From: Sphingopyxis fribergensis
GTDB taxonomy: Bacteria > Pseudomonadota > Alphaproteobacteria > Sphingomonadales > Sphingomonadaceae
Assembly: GCF_000803645.1 (NCBI RefSeq)
Contig: NZ_CP009122.1
Location: 2,022,501 to 2,086,500 of the forward strand
DNA: 64,000 nt
Direction: 5' to 3'
The notes below the pieces were generated by a model that did not search any database, was not told the origin of the DNA, and saw nothing but the letters and a program-made list of their open reading frames with translations. Made by a program: the position numbers and the translations under genes. Shown piece after piece: positions 31,072 through 47,081 of the stretch (position 1 is its first letter; each line of letters opens with the position of its first letter).

Positions 31072-32718
31072 ATGTCTGCTACAAAATCACACGCCCCGCA
31101 AACAATGCAACGGGTTGCACGCTATCTATATCGTCGGGGCAACGGCTACACCTTTCGCCGGAATATTCCTGCGTATGCGCGCCCTGCGTTCGGCGGGATC
31201 ACAGAGTATGTCCGCAGCTTCGGCGATGTGACCGAAACGAAAGCGAAAGCGCAGGCAATCCTTCTCGGCGAGCATTGCACCCGCTTGTTCGATGAAGCGC
31301 GGAATAAGGGGCAATCGAAAAGCAAGTCTTCCGATATTTTTCGGATCAAGCGGACACCCGATGGCGAGGAAATCGAGCACGCGGTTCGGACATGGCTGAT
31401 CAAAATAGAAACCAGTATGTCGGAGACACTCTTGATGGAACGAGCGAGCGCCGATCAGCACGTGCGTGACCTCGGTCGGCTGGATGTAGAGGTAGTTAGG
31501 GTTATGCGGTCACGGGGCGGGAACGCACCCCTGATGACCCGGTGGATCGCCGAAACGCTTGTTGAAGCCAATGACTGGACCATTCCGACGGACGGCCCTC
31601 TTCGCGTGCTGCTCGAAGACCGCGTTGCACGGGGACAGCGCGAACTGGCTGCGCGGCAACGCGCGGAACTCTCTTGGGAAGATCAGCCAAGACCGACACA
31701 TCGTATGTTCGCCCCCGAGGAGTTTTCCCGAGACAAAGACACCCCGGCCGCAAACCCGTATCGCCAACCAGTGCCCCTCAAAGAGGTTCTGGAGCAGTAT
31801 TTTGCGGAGCAGGAACCCGCCGCCAACACGGTCAAGAAATGGACCACGGCCTTAAACTCCTTAATTGAGCATCTCGGACATGACGATGCCACTCGTGTGA
31901 CGGCGGACGACATCGTGGCATGGAAAAATGGTTTGCTGGCTACCAATGACAACGGTGAGCGCGTCCGAGGTCAGCGAACAGTCCGCGACGGCTATGTGGG
32001 CGCGGTGAGACCTGTCTTCGAGTGGGCAGTATCGAACAGGTTGATCGAAACGAACCCTGTCATCAAGGTAAGAGTGTCGGTCCCCCGCCCCATCCGAATG
32101 AGGGCCGAAAAGGGGTATACCGACGCGGAGGCAAAAACGGCCCTCCTTGCGTCGCTTGCGATTGACTGCGAGGCCGACTTGTCGTTCTTCGCATTCGCTC
32201 GACGCTGGTTGCCTTGGCTGTGCGCATATACCGGCGCTCGTGTTGGAGAAATGGCCCAACTCCGGGCAGAGGACGTGGCACAGACCGACGATGGTATCTG
32301 GTATGTCATAGTCACACCCGAAGCCGGGACGCAGAAAGGTGGCTTTGCCCGTAAGGTCGCGCTGCATCCACATCTCATCGAGATGGGTTTTGTGGCAGCG
32401 GCTAGGAAGCGCAGCGGACCGTTGTTTTACGATCCGAAGAGAAGGCGTGCAGGCTCAACGGGCAACCCCCAGCATAAAAAGGTGGCGCAGCGCGTTGCCG
32501 AATGGGTCCGCTCGTTGGGGATCACCGATAAGGAGTTGCAGCCGAACCACGGCTGGCGACACAGGTTCATTACCGTCGCCCGCGACGTAGGTATGGACCC
32601 CGACGTTCGACGCGAGATCACGGCACACGCCGCGAAGGATCAGCATGGTGAATACGGCGACGTGTTCGTGCGGAACAGCAGTCGGGCCATCGCAAATTTT
32701 CCTCGTTACGAGTGGTAG
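31072..32718 (+). CDS. int: Tyrosine-type integrase of the island
   Basis: Site-specific recombinase of 548 residues that should cut and join at the tRNA-Ser repeats. The N-terminal part (RYLYRRGNGYTFRRNIPAYA) matches the DUF6538 arm found in alphaproteobacterial integrases. A SAM-like core-binding region spans about 215-320. The catalytic domain shows the first arginine in TGARVGEMAQLRAEDV, the HxxR box in NHGWRHRF, a later histidine in TAHAAKDQHG and the probable nucleophile tyrosine in HGEYGD. The start at 31072 lacks a clear ribosome-binding site; ATG 31105 is an alternative. A copy of the island palindrome lies at codons 12-16. Confidence 0.92.
   Translation: MSATKSHAPQTMQRVARYLYRRGNGYTFRRNIPAYARPAFGGITEYVRSFGDVTETKAKAQAILLGEHCTRLFDEARNKGQSKSKSSDIFRIKRTPDGEEIEHAVRTWLIKIETSMSETLLMERASADQHVRDLGRLDVEVVRVMRSRGGNAPLMTRWIAETLVEANDWTIPTDGPLRVLLEDRVARGQRELAARQRAELSWEDQPRPTHRMFAPEEFSRDKDTPAANPYRQPVPLKEVLEQYFAEQEPAANTVKKWTTALNSLIEHLGHDDATRVTADDIVAWKNGLLATNDNGERVRGQRTVRDGYVGAVRPVFEWAVSNRLIETNPVIKVRVSVPRPIRMRAEKGYTDAEAKTALLASLAIDCEADLSFFAFARRWLPWLCAYTGARVGEMAQLRAEDVAQTDDGIWYVIVTPEAGTQKGGFARKVALHPHLIEMGFVAAARKRSGPLFYDPKRRRAGSTGNPQHKKVAQRVAEWVRSLGITDKELQPNHGWRHRFITVARDVGMDPDVRREITAHAAKDQHGEYGDVFVRNSSRAIANFPRYEW
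31106..31119. repeat. Island motif TGCAACGGGTTGCA, copy 1
   Basis: Exact copy of a 14-bp near-palindrome found four times in the island, here inside the first codons of the integrase gene, where binding could block its expression. Confidence 0.5.
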
Positions 32719-32770
32719 CGGATTTCCGTGCGCCTCCCTGCACTTATAGGGGGTCCAATGTCTTGCAAAA

Positions 32771-32786
32771 TTGCAACTGGGTGCAA
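32771..32786. repeat. Island motif, degenerate copy
   Basis: TTGCAACTGGGTGCAA differs from the island form TTGCAACGGGTTGCAA at two of 16 positions. A further TTGCAAAATTGCAA palindrome overlaps its left side (32763-32776). It lies in the 211-bp spacer upstream of the small membrane protein genes. Confidence 0.4.
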
Positions 32787-32929
32787 TTGTTCCGGTAGCT
32801 CGCTTTCCCACCATCCCGGAAATCGACATCAGCAACAGGCGGGTTCTAAATCGACCCTCGGCGTTAGTGACCGATTTACTATAGACGCCTAAATGCTAGT
32901 GATGCTTACGGGCGGCACAGGGGGACAAA

Positions 32930-33592
32930 GTGACTGGGCTATTTGTTATCGTATTTATCGCCGCGCTTGTCGGCGTATTCAAGCCATACATCAATGGCGC
33001 AAAGCGTTGGCAATTCGGCCTCGGCGCCTTCGTTGCGTTCATACTGATCGGTGCATTTGCTGAACCGTCATCTCAAAGCAACAACGTTGCGGGCGATGCG
33101 ACTGCCAATTCTTCGGACCCTACCGGGAAAGCTCCGGCCGTAGCAACAGCAGTGGCCAATGAGCCGGAAAGCGCATGGAGCTATTCGAGCGAGAAAGACG
33201 AGATGCGAGGTGCCGAGTCGCATTACGCAGAACTCGACGCGACAAATACCATCAACTTAGATTTTCCCTACGGCGAGCAACGCGGCCGTATTCTTGTCAG
33301 GCAGTCGGCTCAATTTGGATTCGACATTTTGGTTGGCGTGCCGAGCGGTCAGATCATGTGCAACAGCTTCTCGAACTCGCACATTAACGTGAAGTTCGAT
33401 GAAGGGCCGATACAACGATACGGCTGCACAGACGCGAGCGACGGCACTAGTGACATGATATTCATCCAAGGCTCCAAGGGGTTTTTGAGCAAGCTCAAGA
33501 AGTCGAAGAAGGCGGTCGTTGAGGCCGAGTTCTTCCAGAACGGTATGCAGCAAATGACCTTCAATACAGCCAATCTCAATTGGGAGCACTGA
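32930..33592 (+). CDS. Membrane-anchored hypothetical protein
   Basis: Protein of 220 residues from a GTG start preceded by AGGGGGA. Two hydrophobic helices lie at the N-terminus (LFVIVFIAALVGVF and FGLGAFVAFILIGAF), followed by a Ser/Asn/Ala-rich linker and a soluble domain of about 130 residues (ESAWSYSSEKDEMRGAESHY onward, ending FFQNGMQQMTFNTANLNWEH) that looks mostly beta-stranded. It is not recognised; similar domains occur as accessory genes in alphaproteobacterial islands. It is followed five bases later by another small membrane protein, so the two form an operon. A role in defence signalling at the membrane is only a possibility. Confidence 0.7.
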   Translation: MTGLFVIVFIAALVGVFKPYINGAKRWQFGLGAFVAFILIGAFAEPSSQSNNVAGDATANSSDPTGKAPAVATAVANEPESAWSYSSEKDEMRGAESHYAELDATNTINLDFPYGEQRGRILVRQSAQFGFDILVGVPSGQIMCNSFSNSHINVKFDEGPIQRYGCTDASDGTSDMIFIQGSKGFLSKLKKSKKAVVEAEFFQNGMQQMTFNTANLNWEH

Positions 33593-33596
33593 CACT

Positions 33597-33884
33597 ATGC
33601 CTTCTGTTCAACGCGAAGTTAGCGACCGCACATTTTTCGGCAAACTGATGAAATGGCTATTTATCGGGTTCAACATCATCATGTTTCTCTGGATGGCCAG
33701 CTCGTGCGCAGCGGTCAGTGATGTTTCCGCCGGGGCAGTGAACGACGCGGAGCGCGCGGGAGCCGCAATCGGCGCGGGCCTAGGAATGACGTTCCTCTTA
33801 TTCGTCTGGGGCATCGGCGACGTCATTCTCGGTATGTTCGTTCTGTTTACTCGCCGTAAGAAGATTATCACGGTCGAGGAATGA
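33597..33884 (+). CDS. Small two-helix membrane protein
   Basis: Protein of 95 residues with two predicted membrane helices (WLFIGFNIIMFLWMA near residues 20-34 and LGMTFLLFVWGIGDVILGMFVLF near 61-83). A Gly/Ala-rich linker separates the helices, and a basic tail (TRRKKI) follows them. Function unknown. It lies four bases after the preceding membrane protein gene and before the restriction-modification gene, with the island palindrome between. Confidence 0.7.
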   Translation: MPSVQREVSDRTFFGKLMKWLFIGFNIIMFLWMASSCAAVSDVSAGAVNDAERAGAAIGAGLGMTFLLFVWGIGDVILGMFVLFTRRKKIITVEE

Positions 33885-33920
33885 GTTGATGCGAGGGGAA
33901 TGCGTAGCTCCCCCTCGTTT

Positions 33921-33934
33921 TGCAACGGGTTGCA
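33921..33934. repeat. Island motif TGCAACGGGTTGCA, copy 2
   Basis: Exact copy, flanked as TTTGCAACGGGTTGCAAC, located 26 bp upstream of the restriction-modification gene start. The position fits an operator or promoter element for that gene. Confidence 0.5.
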
Positions 33935-33959
33935 ACAGGTCTTTACCTAACCACGGAGC

Positions 33960-36900
33960 ATGTGCTCTATCTCCGCCCCGATGACCGCTGCTGCCGAAAT
34001 TACTGACTTCATTACCCATTGGCGCGACACTGGTGGGTCGGAACTCGCCAACACGCAGAGCTTCATCAACGGCCTCTGCGCGCTGATCGGCGTGCCCCAG
34101 CCGCATGGGAGCAAGGCCGACGACGCGGGCAATGATTACGTGTTCGAGCGCCGCGTGTTTCAGGACAACGGCGACGGCACGCAGAGTTTCGGTAGGATCG
34201 ACTGCTACAGGCGCGACAGCTTTATCATTGAAGCGAAGCAGGGCAGCGATGCCGACCGGGCGGCGGCGGCACGTGGCGAGGAAGACCTTGACCTGTTCGG
34301 CCAGACCGCTTCGGCGCGTTTGAAGCGCGGCACCGCACGGCGCGGTACTCCCGGCTGGGCACGCGCCATGGTGCAGGCCAAGGGACAGGCCGAACGCTAT
34401 GCCCGCGCGCTGCCCACCAATCACGGCTGGCCCCCGTTCCTGCTCGTCACCGACATCGGCTACTGCATCGAGGTCTACGCCGACTTCACCGGCACAGGCC
34501 GCGCATATGCCCAGTTTCCCGATCGCGCCCGCTATCGGATCATGCTCGACGACCTGCACGATCCCGAGGTTCGCGAACGACTGCGCGTGATCTGGACCGA
34601 TCCAAAGTCGCTCGATCCTGCGATCCAGTCCAGCAAGGTCACGCGCGAGATTGCAGAGCTGCTCGCCAAGGTCTCCAAGCGACTAGAGCAACAAGGTCAT
34701 GATGCCGAGAAGGTCAGCGGCTTCCTCATGCGGGTTCTCTTCACGATGTTCGCGGAGGATACCGGCGTGCTGCTTCCCAAGGAGAGCTTCAAGACTTTGC
34801 TCAAGGAGCACGAGGGCAGCCCGCAGCACCTCCATCATTCGCTGTCAGCGTTGTGGAAGGCGATGGATCGGGGCGAGTTCGCTCCCGCGCTGCGCGTGCC
34901 CGTGAAACGCTTCAACGGCTACCTGTTCAAGAATACCGACGCGATCCCGCTCGACGCCGACGAACTGCGTGTGCTGATCGAAGCCGCGTCGAAGGACTGG
35001 ACTGACGTCGAACCGGCAATCTTCGGCACCCTCCTCGAACGCGCCCTATCCGCCAAAGACCGCTCAAAGCTCGGCGCGCACTATACCCCGCGCGCTTACG
35101 TAGAGCGGCTAATCTCGCCCACGATAATGGAACCGTTACGCGGCGATTGGGACGGCGTGCGCGTTGCCGCCGCGACTTTGATTGACGAGGGCAAGGCCGA
35201 CGAGGCCAAACGGTTGGTCGAAAACTTTCATGCCAAGCTCGCCTCGACCAAGGTGCTCGATCCAGCTTGCGGCACCGGCAACTTCCTTTACGTCGCGATG
35301 GCCCGGATGAAGGAGCTTGAAGGCGAAGTGCTCGACCTGCTGATCGAGCTTGGCGATCATCAGTATGTTGCCGAACTGACCGGGCATACCATCACGCCCG
35401 AAAACTTCCTTGGGATCGAGATCAACCCTCGCGCAGCCGCCATTGCCCAATTGGTCCTGTGGATCGGCTACCTGCAATGGCACTTCCGCGTGAACGGGTT
35501 AAACCGTGCTCCCCCCGAGCCGATCCTGCGGGACATCCGCACGATCGAGAACCGCGACGCATTGATCGGTTATGATAGGCGCGAACTTGAGCGCGACAAC
35601 CACGGCAAGCCCGTAACCCGCTGGGATGGCGAGACGACGAAGGAACACCCCGTCACTGGTCGCATGGTGCCTGACGAGGATGCTCGGGTTGAAGTTTACC
35701 GCTACATCAAGCCTGTCGCTGCGAAATGGCCCAAAGCCGATTTCATCGTCGGCAACCCGCCCTTCATCGGCGGCAAGGACGTGCGCGAGCGGCTGGGGGG
35801 TGGCTATTTTGACGCGCTCTTCGCTGCCTCCGACGTTCCTGAGAGCGCCGACTTCGTGATGCACTGGTGGGACAAGGCTGCAAACGCCGTGCGCAAACAG
35901 GGCACCCGTCGCTTCGGCTTCGTCACCACCAATTCGATCACACAGGTTTTCAGCCGCCGGGTCATCGGCAAGCACCTTGACGCCAAGGATCACGTTTGCC
36001 TGCTCTTCGCCATCCCCAACCACCCGTGGGTGGATGAAAAGGATGGGGCCGCTGTGCGTATCGCCATGACCGTGGCCGCGCTCGGCAAGCGGGAGGGGCA
36101 ACTATGGACCGTAGCGGACGAAAGCCGTGCGCCAGAGCATCTCGTTTACACCGAGAGGGTTGGTCAGATCAGTAGCGACCTGCGTGTTGGCGCTGATGTG
36201 ACGGGAACGTTGGCGCTCAAGGCCAACGAAAAACTTGCCTCTCGCGGTGTGCAACTTATGGGCGACGGCTTTATCGTGACGGCGCAACAAGCCGCGCAGC
36301 TTTTACCTACTCAAACCCCTTTGCCGCAACGAACATATATCCGCACCGGCATCGGTGATGGCGACGCGGTGATATTCGACTACCGCAATGGGCGCGACCT
36401 CGCCTCGCGCTCGCGTGGGGTGCAGGTGATCGACCTCTATGGGCTATCCGAGGAAGAAGTGCGGGATCGCTACCCGGCGATATATCAGCACGTGCTAACC
36501 ACCGTGAAGCCACATCGCGAGCAGAACAACCGCGCCTCCTACCGCGACAACTGGTGGCTGTTCGGCGAGCAGAGGTCCGAGCTACGGAAGGCGTTGCGCG
36601 GTGTGACCCGCTACATCGCTACCATCGAGACCGCCAAGCACCGTGTTTTCCAGTTCCTCTCGAAGTCGATCCTTCCCGACAACAAACTCGCGTGCGTTGC
36701 CCTCGACGACGCCTATCACCTTGGCGTGCTGTCGAGCCGATTTCATGTTCCATGGGCTATTGCGACCGGCGGCTGGCTCGGCATGGGCAATGATTCGGTC
36801 TACGTGAAGTCTCGTTGTTTCGATCCGTTCCCATTCCCCGCCGATGTTCACGAACCACTCAAAGACCGTATCCGCTGCGAAGCCGAGGCGCTCGACGCGC

Positions 36901-37472
36901 TGCGAAAGCGCGTGTTGACCGAGCACGAAGACTTGACCCTGACCAAACTCTACAACGTGCTCGACGCGCTGCGCGAGGGCCGCGCCCTGACCGATACCGA
37001 ACGCGACGCGCACGATCGCGGCCTCGTCACCGTGATCCGCCAGCACCATGACCGGATAGACGCGCTTGTCGCAGAGGCTTACGGCTGGCCCGCTGATCTG
37101 CCCGAAGAGGAAATCCTGACCTGCCTCGTCGCACTCAACCGCGCCCGAACTGTCGAGGAGACCAAGGGTCAGGTCCGCTGGCTCCGCCCCGAGTTTCAGG
37201 CTCCTGACTATCAGGCTCCCCTTACCCAGACCCTTGACCTCGGCGAAGCGCCGACAGCCGTGGTCGATAATGTCATCCCATGGCCCGGCACGCTCCCCGA
37301 ACAGGTCAGCGCCATCCAATCCGTACTCGCCGCATCGCCAACACCCCTCGCCCCTCAAGATGTGGCCCGCGCCTTCAAAGGCAAGCGCGCCTCCACCGTC
37401 CGGCCGGTGCTCGATGCGCTGGCGGGGATCGGCATGGCGCGGCGGCTGGCAGACGGGAGGTATGCGGCGTGA
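33960..37472 (+). CDS. Single-chain MmeI-like type IIG/IIL restriction-modification enzyme
   Basis: Protein of 1170 residues expected to cut and adenine-methylate DNA at a specific site. The N-terminal PD-(D/E)xK nuclease motif is D81-x9-E91-A-K93 (GRIDCYRRDSFIIEAKQ), the same spacing as in MmeI. A helical spacer follows (about 170-400). The gamma-class N6-adenine methyltransferase core has motif I DPACGTGNFLY (from D434) and motif IV NPPFIGG (from N599). A target-recognition domain spans about 790-960. A C-terminal winged-helix-like tail (about 1095-1170) contains KGKRASTVRPVLDALAGIGM. The start is uncertain: ATG 33960 has GGAG only one base away, ATG 33981 has none. The HNH gene overlaps its stop. 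Confidence 0.88.
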   Translation: MCSISAPMTAAAEITDFITHWRDTGGSELANTQSFINGLCALIGVPQPHGSKADDAGNDYVFERRVFQDNGDGTQSFGRIDCYRRDSFIIEAKQGSDADRAAAARGEEDLDLFGQTASARLKRGTARRGTPGWARAMVQAKGQAERYARALPTNHGWPPFLLVTDIGYCIEVYADFTGTGRAYAQFPDRARYRIMLDDLHDPEVRERLRVIWTDPKSLDPAIQSSKVTREIAELLAKVSKRLEQQGHDAEKVSGFLMRVLFTMFAEDTGVLLPKESFKTLLKEHEGSPQHLHHSLSALWKAMDRGEFAPALRVPVKRFNGYLFKNTDAIPLDADELRVLIEAASKDWTDVEPAIFGTLLERALSAKDRSKLGAHYTPRAYVERLISPTIMEPLRGDWDGVRVAAATLIDEGKADEAKRLVENFHAKLASTKVLDPACGTGNFLYVAMARMKELEGEVLDLLIELGDHQYVAELTGHTITPENFLGIEINPRAAAIAQLVLWIGYLQWHFRVNGLNRAPPEPILRDIRTIENRDALIGYDRRELERDNHGKPVTRWDGETTKEHPVTGRMVPDEDARVEVYRYIKPVAAKWPKADFIVGNPPFIGGKDVRERLGGGYFDALFAASDVPESADFVMHWWDKAANAVRKQGTRRFGFVTTNSITQVFSRRVIGKHLDAKDHVCLLFAIPNHPWVDEKDGAAVRIAMTVAALGKREGQLWTVADESRAPEHLVYTERVGQISSDLRVGADVTGTLALKANEKLASRGVQLMGDGFIVTAQQAAQLLPTQTPLPQRTYIRTGIGDGDAVIFDYRNGRDLASRSRGVQVIDLYGLSEEEVRDRYPAIYQHVLTTVKPHREQNNRASYRDNWWLFGEQRSELRKALRGVTRYIATIETAKHRVFQFLSKSILPDNKLACVALDDAYHLGVLSSRFHVPWAIATGGWLGMGNDSVYVKSRCFDPFPFPADVHEPLKDRIRCEAEALDALRKRVLTEHEDLTLTKLYNVLDALREGRALTDTERDAHDRGLVTVIRQHHDRIDALVAEAYGWPADLPEEEILTCLVALNRARTVEETKGQVRWLRPEFQAPDYQAPLTQTLDLGEAPTAVVDNVIPWPGTLPEQVSAIQSVLAASPTPLAPQDVARAFKGKRASTVRPVLDALAGIGMARRLADGRYAA

Positions 37473-38353
37473 CGACGGTGCAGGATGTCGTCGGGTCACC
37501 CGACAAGGTCATGGGTGCGAAAGCCGTATTCGGCCCGATCAGTTCGCACGTCATGTGCTTCGGCGGTCGCGGCGAAAGGACAGAAAAGCGGTTCTATTCG
37601 CAACCTGCCGGTGCGGCGAAAAGGGCGGTTGAAGCCCCATGGGTATTTGCAATCGGCGGCGGGAGCAAAGTTCGGGACAACCTGGGGGGCAAGGTGCTTA
37701 ACCTCGTCCGCGTGGCTTGTGTCTATGGCGAGACGGCTGCGTTTGTTCCCCCGGCGGAAGCGATCCGCCTTGCTCAATGGCCTACCGCTGTTGCCTTGCA
37801 CGATGTTTGGGAGCTTGAAGGCTATCCCCACCTGATCGACGACCTTGGCCTGCCCGGCCGCCGCATCCTCGCGGGAGCACAGGACGGAATCATCAAGCCC
37901 CAAGAACACTTTGACCCCTTTTGGCAGGCCGTGCGCGATTGGCCGGTCAAGCTCAAGCCCTTGCCGTTGCCGCTTGACTTCCACGACAGCGGCACGCCGC
38001 GCCAAGTCAGCCAGCGGTTGCCGACCCTCAAGGTGGGCACCGAGGAAGGCAAGGCGGCGTGGAAGCTGCAACGGTCTCGCGAGCGTGATCCTGCGTTGTC
38101 GCGAGCGGCCAAGCAACTCAACATCGCCAAATTCGGTATCTGCACCTGCGAGGCATGCCGGTTTGGGCACAGCGATGCCGGGTTGTTCGACGCCCACCAC
38201 CCCAATCCTCTGTGCGCAGGGGTCCGCACTACCTTAGCAGAGCACCTAGTCGTCCTTTGCCCGACCTGTCATCGGCGTGCACACCGCAAAGACCAGCTAT
38301 CACCGTTCACGCTTAACGAGCTGACGGAGTGGAACAGTATCGGCCGCCCCTGA
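37469..38353 (+). CDS. HNH endonuclease with unassigned N-terminal domain
   Basis: Protein of 294 residues that starts at GTG inside the preceding stop (GTGA overlap), with GGGAGG eight bases upstream. The C-terminal HNH domain holds zinc-binding CTCEAC (Cys225/227/230) and CPTCHRRAH (Cys264, Cys267) around FDAHHPNPLCAG (His243/244), close to the McrA/HNH_5 type. The N-terminal approximately 200 residues (SSHVMCFGGRGE, WVFAIGGGSKVRDNLGG) match nothing recognised and may sense DNA or modification. Tight coupling to the MmeI-like gene suggests one defence unit: either a second nuclease for phages with modified DNA or an assistant cutter. This functional link is inference. Confidence 0.8.
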   Translation: MTTVQDVVGSPDKVMGAKAVFGPISSHVMCFGGRGERTEKRFYSQPAGAAKRAVEAPWVFAIGGGSKVRDNLGGKVLNLVRVACVYGETAAFVPPAEAIRLAQWPTAVALHDVWELEGYPHLIDDLGLPGRRILAGAQDGIIKPQEHFDPFWQAVRDWPVKLKPLPLPLDFHDSGTPRQVSQRLPTLKVGTEEGKAAWKLQRSRERDPALSRAAKQLNIAKFGICTCEACRFGHSDAGLFDAHHPNPLCAGVRTTLAEHLVVLCPTCHRRAHRKDQLSPFTLNELTEWNSIGRP

Positions 38354-38481
38354 CCTGCCCGCGAAATCTGCGGGTCACAACTTGTGCCTTGTGATCTATG
38401 GCTCGCAACTTAGATTGACGGCGTTATGAGCCGGGCTTATGAGCTAGGGAAATCGGACCCCTAACTTGAGAGCTACCGCGC

Positions 38482-39060
38482 ATGAGCCATCGCGTCGCAT
38501 ACTATAGAGTTTCCACAGCTGACCAGAGCATCGAAGCGCAGCGCACCGCGATGGGCAGCGGGTTCGATCAGGAGTTTGTGGACGAGGGTGTAAGCGGCGG
38601 GGTGCTTGCCGCAGCGCGTCCGGGCTTTGGGAGGCTGCTATCGTCTGTCCGCAGGGGCGATACGGTGTATGTCTATGCCGTGGATCGTCTAGGTCGCGAT
38701 GCGATCGACGTGCAGACGACGGTCCGCAACCTGACGCAGGCCGGTGTAACGATCCACATCCACGGTCTTGGCCCCGTCGCGGAAGGGGTGGGAGAGTTGA
38801 TCCTTGCCGTCCTCGCGCAGGTCGCGCAATTAGAGCGCCGCCGTATCGCCGAGCGCACCGCAGCGGGCCGGGAAGCCGCGCGGGCTTCTCTCCGGGCCAC
38901 AGGCAGGACGCATAGGGGCAAGGAGGGCCTTGGTCGGCCTTTCGCTGCCGACCCTGCAACGGTGCGGGAATGGCGGACGGCAGAGGGCGCTAGCATCAAA
39001 GGGACAGCGGAGCACTTCGGGTTGTCGCACGCGACCGTTAAGCGATATTGCGCTGCCTGA
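38482..39060 (+). CDS. Serine recombinase (resolvase/invertase)
   Basis: Protein of 192 residues of the small serine recombinase family. The nucleophile Ser11 lies in YYRVSTADQSIEAQ. DEGVSGGVLAAARPGFGRLL, VYAVDRLGRDAIDVQ and VAQLERRRIAERTAAGREAA are the conserved catalytic and E-helix regions. The C-terminal helix-turn-helix is GASIKGTAEHFGLSHATVKR. It could resolve cointegrates or invert a segment. Its 3' end overlaps the reverse transcriptase gene on the opposite strand by 23 bp. Confidence 0.92.
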   Translation: MSHRVAYYRVSTADQSIEAQRTAMGSGFDQEFVDEGVSGGVLAAARPGFGRLLSSVRRGDTVYVYAVDRLGRDAIDVQTTVRNLTQAGVTIHIHGLGPVAEGVGELILAVLAQVAQLERRRIAERTAAGREAARASLRATGRTHRGKEGLGRPFAADPATVREWRTAEGASIKGTAEHFGLSHATVKRYCAA

Positions 39061-40387
39061 CCGGCCAAATCGGAGTCTGGCTGCCAATTGCTGTCTCGCG
39101 TCGCGACGCGATCATTGCTTTGAGGCGAGAGACAGTTTCCCGCGCCGAAGGGCACCAGCTCCACTTGCTCATTTTTTCGGCAACTGCGCGCTCTATGGCG
39201 TCTATCTCGTCATCCCAACACGTCATCAGCCTCGCGCCGACCGACAACTCCCAGCGGCTCACCACTTCCCACGGGACGAATGCGTCCGCCCCGACCGGCG
39301 TCTTACGATACCACACGCCGAGGAACTTGAATGGGGCCATGACCGGATATGATGATGAGGTAAGTTGAAAGGGACCGGCTCCGTGGTCCGCAAAGGCGGC
39401 ACGGACAAGGTCTCCGATTTCGCGCTCTCGAACGCGGGGTATTATTATCCCCACATTGTCCGACCAGACGAACAGCGGCAACGCTTCAAAGACAGCGGCA
39501 TCTTGAAGCACGGCCGCCATCGCGTGATCGGCAACGAGCGGCGAAATCACCGATCCTTGGGGGATACCCCGTCGGTCCCTTTCGCTGCTTGCTTCGTGGT
39601 CGTCACGAACGGTGGTCATTTCCCCGATAGTCTTGAACGTCATGCCGCCCGTATGGAGCTGCCTCCGCACAATCGCCGGGTCGATGCCCAATTGCCTCTC
39701 CAACCAGTCATGCGAGATCGACCCGTAGAAATCCACGACGTCGAATTGCATGAACAGACTATCTTCGCAGCATCCGTCTAGGGCTGCTAGGAGAGCTTTG
39801 CGAACAGCCGCTGGTCCACGCCGACCTTTGTCATGCGCGTGCATGAACTGGCCATCGTGGAAGCTCGCAAAAGGGTGTAGGGCGGATTTGAGCACGTGTT
39901 GGCGCGCACGGTCCACCCAGTCAAATGAGGTTACTCGACGTGTCCCGCCGTCCCTCTTCATAATCTCGAATTGTCGGCCACGGGCGGCACGGTGGAACTT
40001 GCCGACTTTGCCGACTTGAGCAAACACGCTGATGAGCCGCTGTTGCCGTTGCGCCTCGCGCCGCGCCTGTAAATGCGCCGACTTCACCGGCCACCGCTTC
40101 CTCGCCGCGACGAACAGCGCGTCCACCAGAACGGCTTGCCGACGAAGATGCTCCACACGCTCCCTACGGGCGTTTTTACGGTGCCCGCGCTGATGCAGGC
40201 GTCGGATATTTGCAGCCGACGACAGGGCATTCTGGCGGCACCAACGACGGATCGCCAATTCCTCCGCAAAAGACAGTGTGGCAGCTGACACATCCCCGCC
40301 AAGAACATCGGCGAGCAAGCGACGCGGATCAGCATGACGAAGGGTTGGCGTAATCACAGCGGCTCCCGGTGGTGGATCAGGGAGCAT
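39038..40387 (-). CDS. Reverse transcriptase with WSDN catalytic box
   Basis: Protein of 449 residues from ATG 40387; GTG 40357 has a better GGGAG site and would give 439. The basic N-terminal region (about 40-135) has no recognised fold. RT motif A is QFDVVDFYGSI (Asp216), motif B RRGIPQGSVISPLV (272-285), motif C FVWSDNVGI (W308-N311), and motif D/E KFLGVWYRKT. Catalytic YxDD is therefore WSDN: the first Asp is kept (Asp310), the second is Asn. No maturase, retron msr/msd or DGR repeat is evident. The neighbourhood (restriction enzyme, helicase-nuclease, small ORFs, palindrome just upstream) points to a UG/Abi-like defence RT, but the class is not assigned. Confidence 0.85.
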   Translation of the reverse strand: MLPDPPPGAAVITPTLRHADPRRLLADVLGGDVSAATLSFAEELAIRRWCRQNALSSAANIRRLHQRGHRKNARRERVEHLRRQAVLVDALFVAARKRWPVKSAHLQARREAQRQQRLISVFAQVGKVGKFHRAARGRQFEIMKRDGGTRRVTSFDWVDRARQHVLKSALHPFASFHDGQFMHAHDKGRRGPAAVRKALLAALDGCCEDSLFMQFDVVDFYGSISHDWLERQLGIDPAIVRRQLHTGGMTFKTIGEMTTVRDDHEASSERDRRGIPQGSVISPLVADHAMAAVLQDAAVFEALPLFVWSDNVGIIIPRVREREIGDLVRAAFADHGAGPFQLTSSSYPVMAPFKFLGVWYRKTPVGADAFVPWEVVSRWELSVGARLMTCWDDEIDAIERAVAEKMSKWSWCPSARETVSRLKAMIASRRETAIGSQTPIWPVRQRNIA

Positions 40388-40427
40388 CCCTATAGTCGCT
40401 CGATCTCGCGGCGCACCTAATTTCGGT

Positions 40428-40441
40428 TGCAACGGGTTGCA
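40428..40441. repeat. Island motif TGCAACGGGTTGCA, copy 3
   Basis: Exact copy in the divergent spacer just upstream of the reverse transcriptase start and about 116 bp before the small peptide ORF. It lies where a promoter or operator is expected. Confidence 0.5.
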
Positions 40442-40556
40442 AAATTCCAGCGACCTATGTTGCCTACATATCTATCTATATCAGTTAGTTAACTCTACCC
40501 TCTGTGCGAGAACGGGCTATCATATCGGTCATCTTTTGAACGGTGGAGGTCTGAGA

Positions 40557-40679
40557 ATGGAAAAGGACGGTTTTGGAGGGCTGCTGCGAGGGCTTCGTCA
40601 CCTCAAGGCGATGTCGTTTTTCTGCTTAATCCTCGTCGCTGCGCTGAATTGGCAGGCGTTCGGGTGCGAGTTGAGGTGA
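40557..40679 (+). CDS. Small hydrophobic peptide ORF, 40 residues
   Basis: ATG 40557 is preceded by GGAGG at nine bases. The peptide has a basic N-terminal stretch (LLRGLRHLK) and one probable membrane helix (MSFFCLILVAALNWQAFG). It is divergent from the reverse transcriptase and overlaps the following ORF region closely. Short single-helix peptides are common as toxins or membrane effectors, but nothing identifies this one. It could also be a chance ORF. Confidence 0.4.
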   Translation: MEKDGFGGLLRGLRHLKAMSFFCLILVAALNWQAFGCELR

Positions 40680-40690
40680 AGGAAATGACG

Positions 40691-41002
40691 ATGCCGGTTG
40701 GACGGAGGCCAGTAAGAGCGGGCGACCGCCTCTACTTTCGGGGCTACAGCGTCCCCATCGACTATGAAATCTTGGAAAAGGGTCAAATTGTGGCGGTCGC
40801 GGAGGTCCGCGAGGATGGTGAGTATGTCGTTTTTCCGATTGATGACTGGGGGCGAGTGTATTCTCAAGAGGGCGAGACAGTCTTCTCGGACGAGGTCGTG
40901 CCGCTGCCAATGCCGCCAATTCCCATAAGGCGGTTTCCGCCCCCCTATGGGCAGAGAGACAACGAGGGCCGGTTTAGAGAGGCGACGCGCTTCCTCGGCT
41001 AA
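40691..41002 (+). CDS. Hypothetical protein, 103 residues
   Basis: Predicted soluble protein. The central region GDRLYFRGYSVPIDYEILEK then EDGEYVVFPIDDWGRVYSQEG looks like a small beta-barrel or SH3-like fold, and the tail is proline-rich (PLPMPPIPIRRFPPPYG). AAGGA lies eight bases before ATG 40691; ATG 40685 is an alternative. It starts 11 bp after the small hydrophobic ORF, so the two may form one transcript divergent from the reverse transcriptase. Not recognised. Confidence 0.5.
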   Translation: MPVGRRPVRAGDRLYFRGYSVPIDYEILEKGQIVAVAEVREDGEYVVFPIDDWGRVYSQEGETVFSDEVVPLPMPPIPIRRFPPPYGQRDNEGRFREATRFLG

Positions 41003-41211
41003 GTCCGAACATAAACCGCTCGCGATGCGCACAGCCGCATATGCGCAACCTTGAATCGCATCGGCGTGCCAGCGATCTCTTCATCCTCATGGCTCCAGTA
41101 GAACTGGCAGGCCTCGCCCAGCTTGAACGTCATCAGGATGAAGGCGGCGACACCACCGCGAGCGTCCTTGCGCCGACCGGTCGCCGCAACGAACAGGGCG
41201 TCCACGAGAAC
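40999..41211 (-). pseudogene. Remnant sharing a 35-bp segment with the reverse transcriptase gene
   Basis: On the minus strand, 41177-41211 reads TVLVDALFVAATGRR. It matches AVLVDALFVAARKR in the N-terminal part of the reverse transcriptase (40100-40135 region) at about 32 of 35 bases. A TAA stop lies directly upstream in frame, and only loose similarity continues (KLGEACQFYW against KVGKFH). This suggests a truncated relative of the reverse transcriptase 5' region, or a conserved element under selection at the DNA or RNA level. The 395-bp stretch 41003-41397 holds nothing else except a half palindrome GGGTTGCA near 41274-41281. Confidence 0.35.
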
Positions 41212-41397
41212 GGTTTAGCGATCAGCATTCAACCGCGGCGATCACTTCATCTCCAAGGATCAGAAACGTCGAAGGGTTGCACTGGCATTGTCTTGCGTGG
41301 ATTTTTGACGCGGACCAATCTGACTGACGCAGAATATACGGCTAGGAAAGTCGAAGCGTTTCCATCATTGTTACACTTTCCTTGTTACGGTCTCTTC

Positions 41398-44300
41398 ATG
41401 TCATCCCAACGCCCATTGTTCTCAAAATCTATCGCTGAACTGGAAAAGCTGGTCGAAGAAAAGCGTGGCGACCCGCTAACGCTCGTTCGCGTCATGGCTG
41501 AACTCAGGCACCGCGATACGGATCGCGCTGTCCGACTGCGCAATCGCGTCAAGGCCATTCAAGATGGCTTGGAATTCGACTTAAAGCCGCCCCCGCCGAA
41601 CACGCCAACTCCGCAACCTGCCGATCAGGGCGCTGGCGCACAAGCACCTCTGGCGGGAGGAAATGCCAACACCTCTTACGGCAACCGAACCGAGCTTCGT
41701 CAGACGCCACGCAACGCTCGTTTGCAAGAACGCACGGAACGCGCGGAAATGCCTATCAGCTACGATCCAGCTCTGACTGCCAGTCCATCCGCAGTCGCCG
41801 AACCAGAACATACTCCGGACCCTATCGTCCCCTTCGAGCCAGCAAACCCTCTCGTCGTTTCGAGGATGCTCGATCTGATCGACTACGTGATCTCGGTCGA
41901 GAAAGACAAGCTCAAGATCGTCACCGACGTGGCCGATCACCGAGCCTTCAACCGCAACACCGCCCAATTGGTTGAGCTTCCCGGCGTCCATTTCAACGCC
42001 GTCGATGGCGATGAAGTGGCATGGCTCAAGGTCGAGCGTTTGACCAAGGTTCCCCCGCCTGCGCCGGACGATGAGGAATTGAGGCCTTGGGTCATCCTGT
42101 TGGATGATCCGGCGAAGCAACCGCGATTGCGCGAAGGACTGACCGCCAGTGAAGTGCTGCAAGCAAAGATCAGCCTTGAGTCGGATCAAACCTCCGTTTC
42201 TCTGAACGAGTTCAGCGGTAGAGATGCAATCGAGGCGGCGTTCGCCACTTACCTTGAGGATCCTTGGAAGAGATGGGCAGAGCAGGAGAAGCCGCGCCGG
42301 GAGACCATGACGCTCTATGGTAGCCTGTTTGCCCTCCAAGCCGCTCTGGCTGCCCCAGACGGGACGCCGCAGGAATTTGTGTGCGGTATCGGTTATGCGG
42401 CCTTAGCGCGGGGCGGCAAGCACCTCTGCTATCCGCTGCTGACCGTGCCGCTCGACATCGAATTGGACCACAAGAGCCACGTGATATCGGTTGTGCCGCG
42501 CGAAGAAGTTTCACCGGCGGTCGAAGCGGACCCGCTCGACGTGCTCGAACTCAAGCAAGTCGATGCGTGGAGGAAAGATGCTCGCCGCATCCTAGATGCC
42601 TTAGAGGACTCGCCCCTCTCCCCGTTCGCCCCCGAGACTTATGATGTGATCCTGCGGCACGCCGCTGCACTCTTGGACCCGCAAGCTCGTTATGTAGACG
42701 GTGAGGGCGAGATCATTACACCGCCAGCACCCGGCCCGGAACTGATCGTGAGCAGCGCTTTCGGGTTCTTCCAGCGTGAACGGCGTGCAACGCAACTCAT
42801 GGCCGACTTGCTGGGCTTTCGGGCGCTGCTTGAAGACGGCGATGTCCCTTTGGAAATCCCCGGCGCGATCGCTGCGCTGTTCACCGAACCATCGAGCGCC
42901 GTTGCTGACGAGGATTTTCCTACCTTCCGAGGCATCAACTCCATACCTGGGGTGACCTCATCGGACGGCGCGGGCGCTGACCTGTTCTTCCCGAAACCGT
43001 TCAACGGCGAGCAAGTCCAGATCGCACAACGCCTCGCCGTAGGCGACGGCGTGGTCGTTCAAGGCCCACCGGGAACCGGCAAGACCCATACGATCGCCAA
43101 CATCATCAGTCACTACCTTGCGACCGGAAGGCGTGTGCTCGTCACTTCCCAAAAGACGCCTGCACTTCAAGTCCTTCAAGAACAGCTTCCTGCCCCGATT
43201 CGTCCTTTGGCGGTCAGCTTGCTGGACAGTGATCGCGAAGGTCTGCGACAGTTCCGTGCCTCCGTCGATCTCATAGCCGAGCGGTTGCAGGGTCTTCGAC
43301 GGTCCGAGATCGACAGCGAAATCGACACCCTTGACAGTCGGATTGACGGCTTGCATCGAACCTTGGCGAACCTCGATCGCCAGATCGAAGAACTAGGGCG
43401 CAACGCGCTCCAGTCGGTTATGCTGAACGATCAAGCAATACCTCCTCTCGATGCCGCCAAGGAGGTCTGGGAGGCAGGCGATGACGCATGGTGGATCGAA
43501 GATGCCATCACGCCCGACCCGCGCCATACGCCGAGCTTCGGTAGCGACGACCTCGCCGCTTGTCGTCTGGCCCGCTCGGAATTGGGGGAACTGCTCGGCT
43601 ATCTCGGCAAACCGCTTCCCCCGGCCGACCTATTTGCCGACATCGAAGCCATAGTCTCCACGCACACCGATCTGGCGCAAGCGGCTGCAATCCGGCGCGA
43701 GATCAATTCTGGCGCGCTATGGCCGCTGGTCGATGAAACGCCGGAGACTTTGGACGCAGCGGCAGTTCTGCATGAACGGCTCTCTGCTTGGACGTTAAAG
43801 CGCGACGCCCTAGGCAAAAATGCGCCGCCTTGGGATAATGCACTCGAAGCTCTACTGGCGGCCCCTTCCGATCCTCTCCTGCTCGCGATCCGGGGTTTGA
43901 AGAACGATGCAAGCGAGCTTGCGGACGATCACGCATGGTTCATGACTCGTCCCGTTGAGCTGCCAGCTGAGGCTCTCGACGATCCCCGCTTCGTGGCAGC
44001 GGTTGAAGGCCTACAAAGCGGTGGGCAAGGGCTTGGCGGGCTGGCAGGCCTATTCGCTCGCCGCACCAAGCAATCACTGTCGGGTGTTCGCCTACGCGGC
44101 AAACCACCTCGCGGTGCCGAAGAGTGGCAAGCCGTAGCGCGCCACATTCGCTCGCAAGAGCGCGCTACCATGTTTACGGCGAGCTGGAACCATGCCTGCA
44201 CTACTTCCGACGTACCAAGGCTAGCGAGCACCGGACCGGCTGCGGGTCGCGAAGCAATGCGCGTGGTGGATCGCCTTGAAAGCCTCTTTGCGCTTCACTC

Positions 44301-46818
44301 TGAGGCAGTGGTCCTGACCAAAGAGGTTAGTATACTGCTACCGCAGTGGCGCGGCGCGGTCGAACGCCACCAAGATATGGGATCGACGCTGTACTGTTTG
44401 AAGCTGCATCTTGATCGTGCCCGTCTCGCCAAAGCCGAAGGGGTCCGCCGCCACCTCCTTGTGGAGATTGGGGCGCACGAAACGGAGCTTCATGCAGATG
44501 CGCGCGCCTTAGTTTCCTCGCTTGGCATGGACGCCATGTCAGTCACGGAGTGCCGCGAGCAAGCCATCGCGCTCTCCGGTCGGATCGAGCACCTGCATCG
44601 ACTGAGACCCCACTTTGATACCGTCAACGACGTAGCTGAGAAGGTTACTTCATCGGGAGCACCGCGCTGGGCCTCTCGTCTCTGCTCGGCCCCAGCCATC
44701 GGAGAAGATGTCTGGTGTCCAAGCGACTGGCGACGGCGCTGGCGACTGCGCCAGCTTGCGTCGTGGCTGGATGCTTCACAGAAGCTGGGCGCTTTCCGGA
44801 CGTTGCATGCCGAGCGCCAGAGGGCTGAGGGCGACCTATCGCGCGCTTATACTCGGCTGATCGAGCAACGCACATGGCGGGAACTAAAAAAGCAAGCTTC
44901 TCCCGCCGTGATGACCGCACTCAGCGCTTATGCTGTTGCCGTCGGTCGTATCGGCAAAGGGACGGGAAAGAGTGCCAACCGACATCGCAAAACCGCTCGT
45001 CACGCGGCAAATGCTGTCAAGGGCGCGTTGCCATGCTGGATCATGCCTCACCACAGGGTGTCCGAGTCGCTGCCCGCAGAGCTGGGTATTTTCGACTTGG
45101 TCATTGTCGATGAGGCCTCCCAATCAACCTTAGCCGCCCTTCCGGCGCTGTTCCGCGCCCGCCAAATCTTGGTCGTAGGCGACGACAAGCAAGTCAGCCC
45201 GGATCATGTCGGTCTTGCAATGGATCAAGCCAATGCACGTGCGGCCCGCTACCTCACTTCGCAGGTTGCCCTTTTCCAAGCCCCAATGCGGGAAGAAGCA
45301 TCGCTTTATGATCTCGCCAGCGTGATCTTTGGCGGGGATAACCTGATGCTGCGCGAACACTTCCGTTGTGCCGCGCCGATCATCGAGTTTTCCAAGCGGC
45401 AGTTCTACCGCAACGAGCTGCGGCCCTTGAGGCTCTCTAAGTCCTCTGAGCGTCTCGATCCGGTCCTCATCGACGTTCGGGTCACGGACGGCTATCGGAA
45501 GGGAAAAACCAATCCACCCGAGGCTGATTACATCGTCAGCGAGCTTCGACGCATGGGCGACGACCCCTCGTTCGATGATCGGACATTTGGGGTTACCACC
45601 CTTCTCGGGACCGAGCAGGCCGCGTTGATCTACAAGCGCATTGAAGGCGAGCTTGGGATACCGTTCATCGAAAAATACCACCTACGTGTTGGCGACCCTT
45701 CGGCATTTCAGGGTGACGAGCGAGACGTAATGTTCCTCTCGATGGTCGTAACGGCAGGAAATGCCACGGCACTTAGCGGTCTTGGTTACGAACAGCGCTT
45801 CAACGTGGCGGCTTCACGTGCCCGCGAACGGATGATTTTAGTGCGGTCAATTGAGTTGGATCAACTCAGCCCACGCGACGCCCTCCGGCGCGCGATCCTT
45901 GAGCACTTCCGCTCACCATTCCCAGCTGACGCCGCCGATATGCAGGACGCGCGTGACAGATGCGAGTCTGACTTCGAGCGAGAGATGTTCGATCTGCTCG
46001 CCGAGCGGGGATACAGCGTCGATACCCAAGTCAAAGTCGGCGCCCATCGGATCGACATGGTCGTCGATGGGGATGAGGATCGTCGTCTTGCAATCGAATG
46101 TGATGGTGATCGTTACCACGGCCCGGAGCAGTGGCCTTCGGATATGGCTCGGCAGCGCACTCTTGAGCGCGCAGGTTGGCGCGTTTGGCGCTGCTTCGCA
46201 TCACGCTTCGTGCGCGAAAGGACCGCAGTGGTCGAAGAGCTGGCTGAGCTGCTCTCGACAATGGACATTCAACCCCGCAGCGCCTCAGGGCGATCGCGAA
46301 CCTATACCGAGCTGCGCGAATGGAACTCCTTGAGCGGCACAAACGAAATCGACGAAGCCGATACCGACGAAGATGATGCCTCGCTGGGAGACGATCTTTT
46401 GTCAGGTGAGACGACCAATACCGACCCCTTGCAACCCGTTGCAACGCGTTGGAATGGCCACGACACCACTGAAACAATCAGCATTGCACCTATCGGAATA
46501 TCAGAACCTTCGTCGCCACCTTCTGCGAACACGGCGCAACGCGTTACGGAGACAGACGTCCAAGCGGCAATCCTGGAGCTATTGGGGAACGGCGAGGTTT
46601 GGACCAATGCAGAGCTAAAACAGGCGCTGTCTCACGTTCTTCCGCTTCACGCCGGGGACCGGCAGCAGTCATCAAGCCGCCCCAACGAGGAAAAGTGGGA
46701 AGAGCTGGTGAACAATGCGCTGGCTAGCTCCGGACGCAGCAACTCACTCTATGCCCGAGGATTGGTGTCCAAAGCTGGGTTTGGAATGCACCGTCTTGCA
46801 GAACGCGATGATAGGTAG
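41398..46818 (+). CDS. SF1 helicase fused to Vsr/DUF559-like nuclease and Mrr-N-like domain
   Basis: Giant cytoplasmic protein of 1806 residues from ATG 41398 (no strong ribosome-binding site; the frame is open upstream). An N-terminal region of about 500 residues has DUF4011-like features. Walker A is GPPGTGKT (556-563) followed by VTSQKTPALQVLQEQL. A long helical insert spans about 650-1150, with Walker B VDEASQS (Asp1238) and GDDKQVSP. Motifs V and VI are FQGDERDVMFL and NVAASRARERM. A PD-(D/E)xK-type nuclease follows, with IDMVVDG (Asp1553) and AIECDGDRYH (Glu1567). An Mrr-N-like winged helix ends the protein (WEELVNNALASSGRSN). COG1112 helicase-Vsr fusions are known in defence islands. 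Expected role: sensing and degrading invading nucleic acid (inference). Confidence 0.88.
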   Translation: MSSQRPLFSKSIAELEKLVEEKRGDPLTLVRVMAELRHRDTDRAVRLRNRVKAIQDGLEFDLKPPPPNTPTPQPADQGAGAQAPLAGGNANTSYGNRTELRQTPRNARLQERTERAEMPISYDPALTASPSAVAEPEHTPDPIVPFEPANPLVVSRMLDLIDYVISVEKDKLKIVTDVADHRAFNRNTAQLVELPGVHFNAVDGDEVAWLKVERLTKVPPPAPDDEELRPWVILLDDPAKQPRLREGLTASEVLQAKISLESDQTSVSLNEFSGRDAIEAAFATYLEDPWKRWAEQEKPRRETMTLYGSLFALQAALAAPDGTPQEFVCGIGYAALARGGKHLCYPLLTVPLDIELDHKSHVISVVPREEVSPAVEADPLDVLELKQVDAWRKDARRILDALEDSPLSPFAPETYDVILRHAAALLDPQARYVDGEGEIITPPAPGPELIVSSAFGFFQRERRATQLMADLLGFRALLEDGDVPLEIPGAIAALFTEPSSAVADEDFPTFRGINSIPGVTSSDGAGADLFFPKPFNGEQVQIAQRLAVGDGVVVQGPPGTGKTHTIANIISHYLATGRRVLVTSQKTPALQVLQEQLPAPIRPLAVSLLDSDREGLRQFRASVDLIAERLQGLRRSEIDSEIDTLDSRIDGLHRTLANLDRQIEELGRNALQSVMLNDQAIPPLDAAKEVWEAGDDAWWIEDAITPDPRHTPSFGSDDLAACRLARSELGELLGYLGKPLPPADLFADIEAIVSTHTDLAQAAAIRREINSGALWPLVDETPETLDAAAVLHERLSAWTLKRDALGKNAPPWDNALEALLAAPSDPLLLAIRGLKNDASELADDHAWFMTRPVELPAEALDDPRFVAAVEGLQSGGQGLGGLAGLFARRTKQSLSGVRLRGKPPRGAEEWQAVARHIRSQERATMFTASWNHACTTSDVPRLASTGPAAGREAMRVVDRLESLFALHSEAVVLTKEVSILLPQWRGAVERHQDMGSTLYCLKLHLDRARLAKAEGVRRHLLVEIGAHETELHADARALVSSLGMDAMSVTECREQAIALSGRIEHLHRLRPHFDTVNDVAEKVTSSGAPRWASRLCSAPAIGEDVWCPSDWRRRWRLRQLASWLDASQKLGAFRTLHAERQRAEGDLSRAYTRLIEQRTWRELKKQASPAVMTALSAYAVAVGRIGKGTGKSANRHRKTARHAANAVKGALPCWIMPHHRVSESLPAELGIFDLVIVDEASQSTLAALPALFRARQILVVGDDKQVSPDHVGLAMDQANARAARYLTSQVALFQAPMREEASLYDLASVIFGGDNLMLREHFRCAAPIIEFSKRQFYRNELRPLRLSKSSERLDPVLIDVRVTDGYRKGKTNPPEADYIVSELRRMGDDPSFDDRTFGVTTLLGTEQAALIYKRIEGELGIPFIEKYHLRVGDPSAFQGDERDVMFLSMVVTAGNATALSGLGYEQRFNVAASRARERMILVRSIELDQLSPRDALRRAILEHFRSPFPADAADMQDARDRCESDFEREMFDLLAERGYSVDTQVKVGAHRIDMVVDGDEDRRLAIECDGDRYHGPEQWPSDMARQRTLERAGWRVWRCFASRFVRERTAVVEELAELLSTMDIQPRSASGRSRTYTELREWNSLSGTNEIDEADTDEDDASLGDDLLSGETTNTDPLQPVATRWNGHDTTETISIAPIGISEPSSPPSANTAQRVTETDVQAAILELLGNGEVWTNAELKQALSHVLPLHAGDRQQSSSRPNEEKWEELVNNALASSGRSNSLYARGLVSKAGFGMHRLAERDDR
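46430..46443. repeat. Island motif, copy 4 (reverse orientation)
   Basis: TGCAACCCGTTGCA, the reverse complement of the island motif, lies inside the helicase gene between nuclease and Mrr-N-like parts. Its presence within coding sequence, in a linker region, weakens a pure operator role. Confidence 0.45.
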
Positions 46819-47013
46819 TCGGGGCAACGAATCGCCTGCCAACTCGCCCGTCGCAAGGCGCCTCTCCTTCCCCAACGCCCGGATGATGGTTCACCGCGTA
46901 CGAACGGGGCGCCATCGCCAGTCACCTATATGCTACAAAATGCGCTCCAAATTTCGAGTAGAGGAGGCCGCGTAAGATATTGAAAAATATATGTAACATT
47001 CGATAGGAGGAGT

Positions 47014-47031
47014 ATCCCTCACTCTCCTCCA
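47014..47031 (+). repeat. attR of the tRNA-Ser genomic island
   Basis: Second exact copy of ATCCCTCACTCTCCTCCA, not part of a full tRNA. It is followed by ATTTTTCTAAGTTTTT, probably the native tRNA-Ser terminator left behind at the far end of the island. The 195 bp between the helicase stop and this site hold no recognisable gene. Confidence 0.9.
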
Positions 47032-47060
47032 TTTTTCTAAGTTTTTGACCACGGCAGGCC

Positions 47061-47081
47061 GCCCCGGCACGAAACCGGGGC
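47061..47081 (-). terminator. Hairpin after the YIP1-family gene
   Basis: GCCCCGG (47061-47067) pairs with CCGGGGC (47075-47081). It lies 16 bp past the stop of the minus-strand YIP1-family gene and is followed on that strand by a short T-run (TCAAAAACTT reads as an A-run on one strand only), so termination is likely but imperfectly supported. Confidence 0.45.

Follow-up and report, generated by a model that had tools for sequence, protein, structure and literature searches.

Introduction

Bacterial reverse transcriptases (RTs) have repeatedly yielded new biology. Functionally, the nearest precedent for DNA joining by an RT is G2L4 (PMC12337344), a domesticated group II-like RT of DNA repair that keeps Asp-Asp in motif C, and the available part of its description names no recombinase partner. 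Among the defence-associated RTs (DRTs), DRT9 has been described as an RT plus a non-coding RNA (ncRNA) (PMC12489045). The res site of Tn3 resolvase is described as binding three dimers over around 120 bp, with the crossover at site I (PMC9943657). Here we analyzed a stretch of 64,000 nucleotides of Sphingopyxis fribergensis (contig NZ_CP009122.1, positions 2,022,501 to 2,086,500; the whole stretch is called the window), which encodes an RT with WSDN in motif C, facing the gene of a serine resolvase.

This RT, conserved and full-length, has the RT fold and belongs to an unnamed group; within the bacterial family of the window it is found beside a serine resolvase, in islands integrated at tRNA genes. 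In the window, the island extends for around 16 kb (30983-47031), from a tRNA-Ser gene to an 18-bp repeat. A literature search of titles and starts of abstracts, with subscription papers and most preprints outside its scope, gave among the matches listed no report joining an RT with a serine recombinase, a resolvase, integrative elements or palindromes, and the sole match for two of the terms WSDN, YSDN, SDN motif, YGDN and reverse transcriptase concerned a beta-lactamase.

A conserved RT with Asp-Asn in motif C

The translated RT has canonical motifs A (FDVVDF, with D216) and B (RRGIPQGSV), followed by a motif C that reads FVWSDN (W308, S309, D310, N311), as stated in the preliminary description of this DNA, and it belongs to the Pfam family RVT_1 (1.2e-09; 38.7 bits, with a cut-off of 29.6). 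Homologues were searched for in around 5.8 billion protein sequences, with scoring restricted to the 7996 candidates that shared most words, and 24 proteins were returned, the window's own copy among them. The resulting alignment (A1) contains the window RT and 23 homologues at 38-58% identity, and a 164-aa fragment (P0026), added by profile search, was left outside it. D216 and all four residues of WSDN are invariant in the 24 rows, in such a way that none of them has Asp-Asp in motif C, and the G-S of the PQGS motif is strictly kept, as are the Asp of motif A and the leading Asp of motif C. Since WSDN is invariant in every row, it is a conserved feature of the close homologues and neither private to this sequence nor the product of a decay mutation.

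An AlphaFold2 model of the protein (mean predicted local distance difference test score of 89.6) shows a complete RT hand, with motif C predicted in its customary position on a beta hairpin (strands 305-308 and 311-317). Among the matches listed in a fold comparison there was no solved chain from this RT group, a result that excludes nothing. The rates of nonsynonymous and synonymous change in the coding sequence were 0.0095 and 0.035, based on 22 differences, and the gene looks conserved by selection.

Decaying copies of the family were also observed, one interrupted (L015, 7838-11454) by an insertion that appears IS21-like by eye, one frameshifted (L017, 9977-11339) and one reduced to a fragment (L027, 9992-10294).

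The A1 profile matched in 11 of 397 genomes of the same bacterial family (E<=1e-8) and, at the order level, in 8 of 396 genomes (E<=1e-10). One relative comes from Allopontixanthobacter confluentis (L002) and another carries the database name Novosphingobium. Residence in phages or plasmids was rejected, as tblastn gave no match in either the phage or the plasmid collection; five viral-contig stretches matched a pattern, and none of them encodes a relative.

Placement among the described RT classes

The window RT shares the RT core with DRT9 and UG17, which gave its best PADLOC scores, although these were only 38 bits (Drt9) and 34 bits (UG17). For calibration, the class profiles of PADLOC-DB 2.0.0 were run on ten RTs from related genomes: nine scored 204-743 bits on the retron or DRT class to which they belong, and the remaining one, of group II, scored 223 bits on a generic RT profile. 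Eight other members of the group under study remained at or below 49 bits. Nothing exceeded any cut-off in NCBIfam, in which the retron family St85 gave 14 of 235 bits and the group II maturase family 48.2 of 300 bits; the PADLOC retron classes gave at most 13.6 bits, and PHROGs a weak generic RT match of 36 bits. Membership in a described class was thus rejected at the level of PADLOC, NCBIfam and PHROGs profiles.

The RTs of diversity-generating retroelements (DGRs) are reported to carry (I/V/L)GxxxSQ in motif 4 (PMC4244168), whereas the window RT reads GIPQGSVISP. No ungapped direct repeat of at least 45 nt, as sought for template and variable repeats, was found within 30900-47100, and a DGR was rejected.

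In a tree built without the motif C columns, 30 rows of the group formed one branch (support 97/96), separate from the included group II, retron, DRT2, 3a, 3b, 6 and 8 rows, although its deeper placement is unsure due to several long branches. When more distant members were included, 34 rows stayed together at 85/91 support, and only two parts of this wider group were well supported, one of 16 WSDN/YSDN rows (100/99) and one of 13 rows (100/98). The partial or broken RTs of L015, L017 and L027 were omitted from the trees, and that of L026 also from the 34-row one. Motif C is xDN in 29 of the 34 rows and xDD in five, with at least four changes on the tree, and H-x-AGPF follows motif C as a signature of the wider group, with exceptions. 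These profiles, motif 4 and the trees agree with the proposal that sets the enzyme apart from those of group II introns, retrons and DGRs, and a known class in which SDN is standard, which would have contradicted it, was not seen in what was searched. As myRT is reported to leave 88 of 25,570 RTs in complete genomes unclassified (PMC8934634), members of the group may already stand in such lists.

The genome of the window holds a second RT (L150/L202, C1:3481973-3482440), which reads YVDD and groups with a retron VI-type RT.

Search for an RNA partner

A scan of 30000-48000 with Rfam (E<=1) detected only the tRNA and one plastid-family match overlapping it, and no intron or retron RNA was matched around the RT, as the preliminary description had held. 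A conserved ncRNA upstream of the gene, which it had proposed to look for, did not appear: the 261 bp upstream of the window RT match other loci only around a palindrome (described below) with a short flank, and they fold no better than shuffled sequences. In L013, L014 and L016, the gaps between the genes of a helix-turn-helix (HTH) protein, the RT, the resolvase and the next gene are of 38 bp or less, leaving no room for a neighbouring ncRNA.

Probable cargo exchange at the res site

The resolvase has the catalytic domain of its family (Table 1), and three inverted subsites were detected in the approximately 140 bp upstream of its gene. They are kept across 31 aligned loci, some with an RT and some without, with twelve resolvase rows excluded for want of a recognised start motif, and L002 because it duplicates L014. 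Comparison of related islands located the probable exchange. L013 and L014 are 98% identical over 4.2 kb, from the integrase to res, and L016 is 87% identical to both across the resolvase and res; the three are 87-96% alike up to TTGTA, the centre of res site I, and show chance identity beyond it. The pair L076/L078, from two contigs of one genome and lacking an RT, diverges at the edge of this res site, and two further comparisons, L065/L072 and L070/L072, are alike throughout and thus uninformative. The break at the centre of site I is the footprint expected of a resolvase-mediated exchange of the cargo arm, which is well supported by these data. In the comparable island pairs the RT is found on the constant side, together with the resolvase and the integrase, and it is the cargo that changes.

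The Resolvase domain, a res site of around 120-140 bp upstream of the gene and the break at the centre of site I are shared with Tn3-type resolvases, whereas the window resolvase differs in lying in a tRNA island and facing an RT gene, and in its probable role in cargo exchange instead of cointegrate resolution. These natural sequences illustrate how a resolvase can swap the cargo of an island at a precise base position.

In two of the compared pairs, the exchanged cargo has its far border at a 16-bp palindrome. In L013/L014 and L014/L016 the similarity on the cargo side fades to chance at around 10-40 bp from a palindrome copy, and on its attR side it is weak over around 20 bp before becoming high. 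L013 and L016 are alike on both sides of the palindrome, and the divergence of L017 is too great for a verdict.

The genome of L013 (G139) has a further stretch (L069/L126) that carries two palindromes and the resolvase, and no second family RT was found in this genome.

A palindrome specific to the island

The palindrome, TTGCAAC-NN-GTTGCAA, is present in exactly three copies in the genome of 5,202,172 bases, all of them in the island, so that the shared palindrome noted at first sight turned out to be very specific. The window contains five matches with up to one mismatch, compared with none in 100 shuffles. Among exact copies the two central bases vary and the seven on each side are fixed, and the copy at the window RT and both copies of L015 have around 16 bp of one flank in common. 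The copies at 33920 and 40427 bracket the restriction-modification, HNH-like, resolvase and RT genes. A copy with up to one mismatch lies at the RT start or within around 130 bp upstream of it in the window, L013-L017 and L025; in L128 it lies at the RT start, and in L124 and L184 at 50-125 bp after the RT.

Exact copies were found in 22 of 397 genomes of the bacterial family. They are present in 11 of 20 RT-positive genomes (E<=1e-20) and in 11 of 362 others (Fisher 1.7e-10), a count that joins scans of 397 and 382 genomes on the assumption that both draws agree. Two of these RT-positive genomes (G420, G263) hold group II-like RTs, in G465 the RT and the palindrome are on different contigs, and the copy in G432 is one of the possible coding coincidences mentioned below. 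Moreover, A2 includes the RTs of L124, L128 and L130, first met through the palindrome, and without those three genomes the fraction is 8 of 17. Action of the resolvase on the palindrome was rejected, as its own res site differs and the 35 resolvase loci without an A1-type RT have one exact copy in 419,606 bases, compared with 8 in 120,000 in six RT loci (flanks of around 6 kb in the former and 10 kb in the latter).

Some palindromes stand apart. The exact copies of L118, L131 and L134 are inside the frame of a serine recombinase, with codons including A-T-G-C, and may be coding coincidences; six solitary copies (L121, L122, L123, L127, L129, L133) may be due to chance; and in L119 and L120 the palindrome adjoins repeated gene ends which, by eye, resemble Rhs.

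Linkage of the RT family to recombinases

In the window, the resolvase and RT genes are convergent and their 3' ends overlap by 23 bp. Among the closest relatives for which flanking sequence exists, the RT and a resolvase of 63-65% identity lie tail to tail, overlapping or at most 9 bp apart (L013, L014, L016, L017 and L025, and also L015, beside the interrupted RT). In L013, L014 and L016 the start of the RT gene shares 4 bp with the HTH gene, and a divergent small gene and the integrase come next. The distant RTs of L018, L019, L028, L128, L131, L185 and L186 have a serine recombinase within around 1.3 kb, and the largest distance between RT and recombinase was 5.2 kb (L184). Several types of serine recombinase occur beside family RTs.

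When 20 family loci were examined over the fetched stretch (around 10 kb per side where the contig allows), 17 had a serine recombinase, 17 a tyrosine integrase and 14 a palindrome with up to one mismatch, counts in which L013/L014 and L016/L017 are related by descent and for which the recombinase and integrase profiles, derived from proteins of these loci, may be more sensitive to this context than to others. The loci without serine recombinase are L026 and L187, near contig ends, and the fragment L027, and those without integrase are L015, L027 and L185. None of the three features was found in 11 comparison loci with other retron- or DRT-type RTs (L192-L202), eight of them assigned by PADLOC; L192, of only 12.4 kb, L201 and L202 were outside that scan, and the RTs of the last two group with retrons in the tree. 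Of four group II-like RT loci (L188-L191), one had a serine recombinase and none an integrase or a palindrome. In 20 control integrase loci, hand-picked for integrases of around 360 aa or longer and away from RT loci, a serine recombinase was found within around 10 kb in one (Fisher 4e-07) and the palindrome in none (Fisher 3e-06).

A second small serine recombinase type, of around 187 aa, recurs in palindrome-bearing islands (L118 8521-9593, L124 13054-14299, L125 7368-8595, L131 6917-8119, L134 8726-9998). Beside it there are mutually related genes of 145-180 aa; one of them was scanned without any Pfam match, and the two read fully show paired Cys/His.

Possible roles of the RT

We tentatively favour, with somewhat less than even confidence, that the RT is an active polymerase of the island backbone with a role in joining or filling in the ends of recombining modules, because it stays on the constant side, no ncRNA was found, its coding sequence appears to be under selection and G2L4 offers a precedent. 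What is firm in this proposal is the anatomy, along with the resolvase exchange. The resolvase would act at the three-part res site beside its own gene and exchange cargo there, and the RT would remain on the constant side of this exchange, both steps being well supported. The RT, whose motif C reads Asp-Asn, would further be active as a polymerase. Least certain, it might work for the island at palindromic junctions, much like G2L4, as a DNA polymerase of the strand-annealing, snap-back or end-joining kind, and it might copy no dedicated neighbouring ncRNA. The identity to G2L4 in a structural alignment is 12%, and the window RT has DN where G2L4 keeps DD.

Several points weigh against this proposal. 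The resolvase, found in 41 places in 36 of the 397 genomes, is beside a family RT in only six and thus common without it (35 of 41), and its exchange does not require the RT, because the pair lacking one breaks at the same res site. No palindrome with up to one mismatch was found in six family loci (L018, L019, L026, L028, L186, L187), 11 genomes have the palindrome without a strong family RT match, and no palindrome-acting protein turned up in the analysis. Finally, recombinases are reported to adjoin antiphage genes often (PMC12529663), and DRT1 is reported to show that template-free RTs can be antiviral (PMC13275509).

It is possible, if not what we expect, that the palindrome is the operator of an island transcription factor and marks regulated genes, not junctions. 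Copies at or just before the starts of the RT, the MmeI-like gene and the integrase are consistent with this, as is the flank of around 16 bp common to some copies. Nevertheless, other copies are located after stop codons, within coding sequence or downstream of cargo (46429 in the window, L016, L124, L184), the cargo homology of L013/L014 ends at a palindrome copy, and a comparison of 25 loci revealed no gene cluster common to all, the largest being the serine recombinases, in 16.

The preliminary description had proposed an undescribed or rarely described defence RT. By the profiles searched, the first part stands; the analysis yielded no positive sign of antiphage function, and in the comparable island pairs the RT keeps to the constant side with the resolvase and the integrase. 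An island-carried RT, template-free and protein-primed like DRT class 1 or 3, that protects the island and its host against phages or rival elements is a rather doubtful but serious alternative. Restriction and helicase genes are among the cargo, template-free DRTs are reported to need no adjacent ncRNA (PMC13275509), and the best PADLOC match was to Drt9, though with just 38 bits; antiviral synthesis is all the more serious a rival because serine recombinases are often reported beside antiphage genes (PMC12529663). By contrast, the RT scores far under every DRT class, is outside DRT2, 3a, 3b, 6 and 8 in the trees and is the constant, not the exchanged, part in L013/L014/L016, and no recombinase context was seen in the 11 loci of other retron- or DRT-type RTs.

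An RT devoid of polymerase activity, acting as a nucleic-acid-binding scaffold or as a regulator of the resolvase or integrase, seems unlikely. In its favour, none of the 24 WSDN rows has the second Asp; however, the first Asp of motif C, the motif A Asp and the G-S of PQGS are strictly retained, xDD and xDN members intermix on the tree, and active viral polymerases with DN exist. The birnavirus (ADN) and mononegavirus (GDN) polymerases, described as active, have Asn after the catalytic Asp of motif C, like the window RT, although they are viral RNA polymerases and the likeness covers this one position.

An extension of the favoured role, which we regard as improbable, is a cargo-capture machine in which the xDN RT, the recombinases and the dispersed palindromes build modular islands: the RT would make or anneal palindrome-ended DNA, new modules would join at TTGCAAC-NN-GTTGCAA, and the resolvase would swap the other end at res. 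That two-recombinase islands collect RTs by chance is the weakest explanation and very unlikely, as the 35 of 41 resolvase places without family RT that would suit it are countered by the serine recombinases at 17 of 20 RT loci and only one of 20 control integrases, by the several recombinase types involved and by a coding sequence that looks conserved by selection. The group retains an active-site change with expected consequences for metal binding, is linked to DNA recombinases and has shown no ncRNA partner so far, and the palindrome, as a sequence signature, makes its role testable.

Other features of the island

The coordinates of the features are collected in Table 1.

Table 1. Features of the island and their positions in the window.
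Feature	Position	Strand	Evidence or remark
tRNA-Ser (cga)	30911-31000	+	Probable integration target
attL	30983-31000		18-bp direct repeat paired with 47014-47031
Tyrosine integrase	31072-32718	+	Pfam DUF6538 and Phage_integrase
Imperfect palindrome copy	31105-31120		2 mismatches; near start of integrase reading frame
1-mismatch palindrome copy	32771-32786		52 bp after integrase stop
Palindrome TTGCAACGGGTTGCAA	33920-33935		24 bp before MmeI-like gene
MmeI-like type IIG restriction-modification enzyme	33960-37472	+	Cargo; PADLOC 1514.6 bits
HNH-like protein	37469-38353	+	Cargo; GTG start inferred from open reading frame (ORF)
Putative three-subsite res site	38360-38481, approximate		Upstream of resolvase gene; window row gapped in alignment
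Serine resolvase, 192 aa	38482-39060	+	Pfam Resolvase 1.5e-30
RT, 449 aa, motif C WSDN	39038-40387	-	ORF translation, Pfam, 24-row alignment, AlphaFold2
Palindrome TTGCAACGGGTTGCAA	40427-40442		At 5' end of RT gene
Alternative RT start, TTG	40432		Possible; within palindrome
Small ORF, 117 aa	40649-41002	+	Divergent from RT; no Pfam match
SF1 helicase with C-terminal nuclease domain	41041-46818	+	Cargo; distant to ProA and Hhe
Palindrome TTGCAACCCGTTGCAA	46429-46444		Inside 3' part of helicase gene; overlapped by 1-mismatch copy at 46439
attR	47014-47031		18-bp direct repeat; probable right island end

The 117-aa ORF runs divergently from the RT, in line with the divergent small ORFs initially described. 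The HNH-like protein matched HNH at 0.017, under the Pfam cut-off, and a PADLOC type IV restriction endonuclease at 8e-04. A protein of 220 aa (32930-33592), with no Pfam family, has relatives in L118 (9617-10195) and L124 (14589-15233), which are also palindrome islands. The similarity of the helicase-nuclease to ProA (232 of 1500 bits) and Hhe (148 of 2000 bits) is weak, and it is possibly an undescribed relative.
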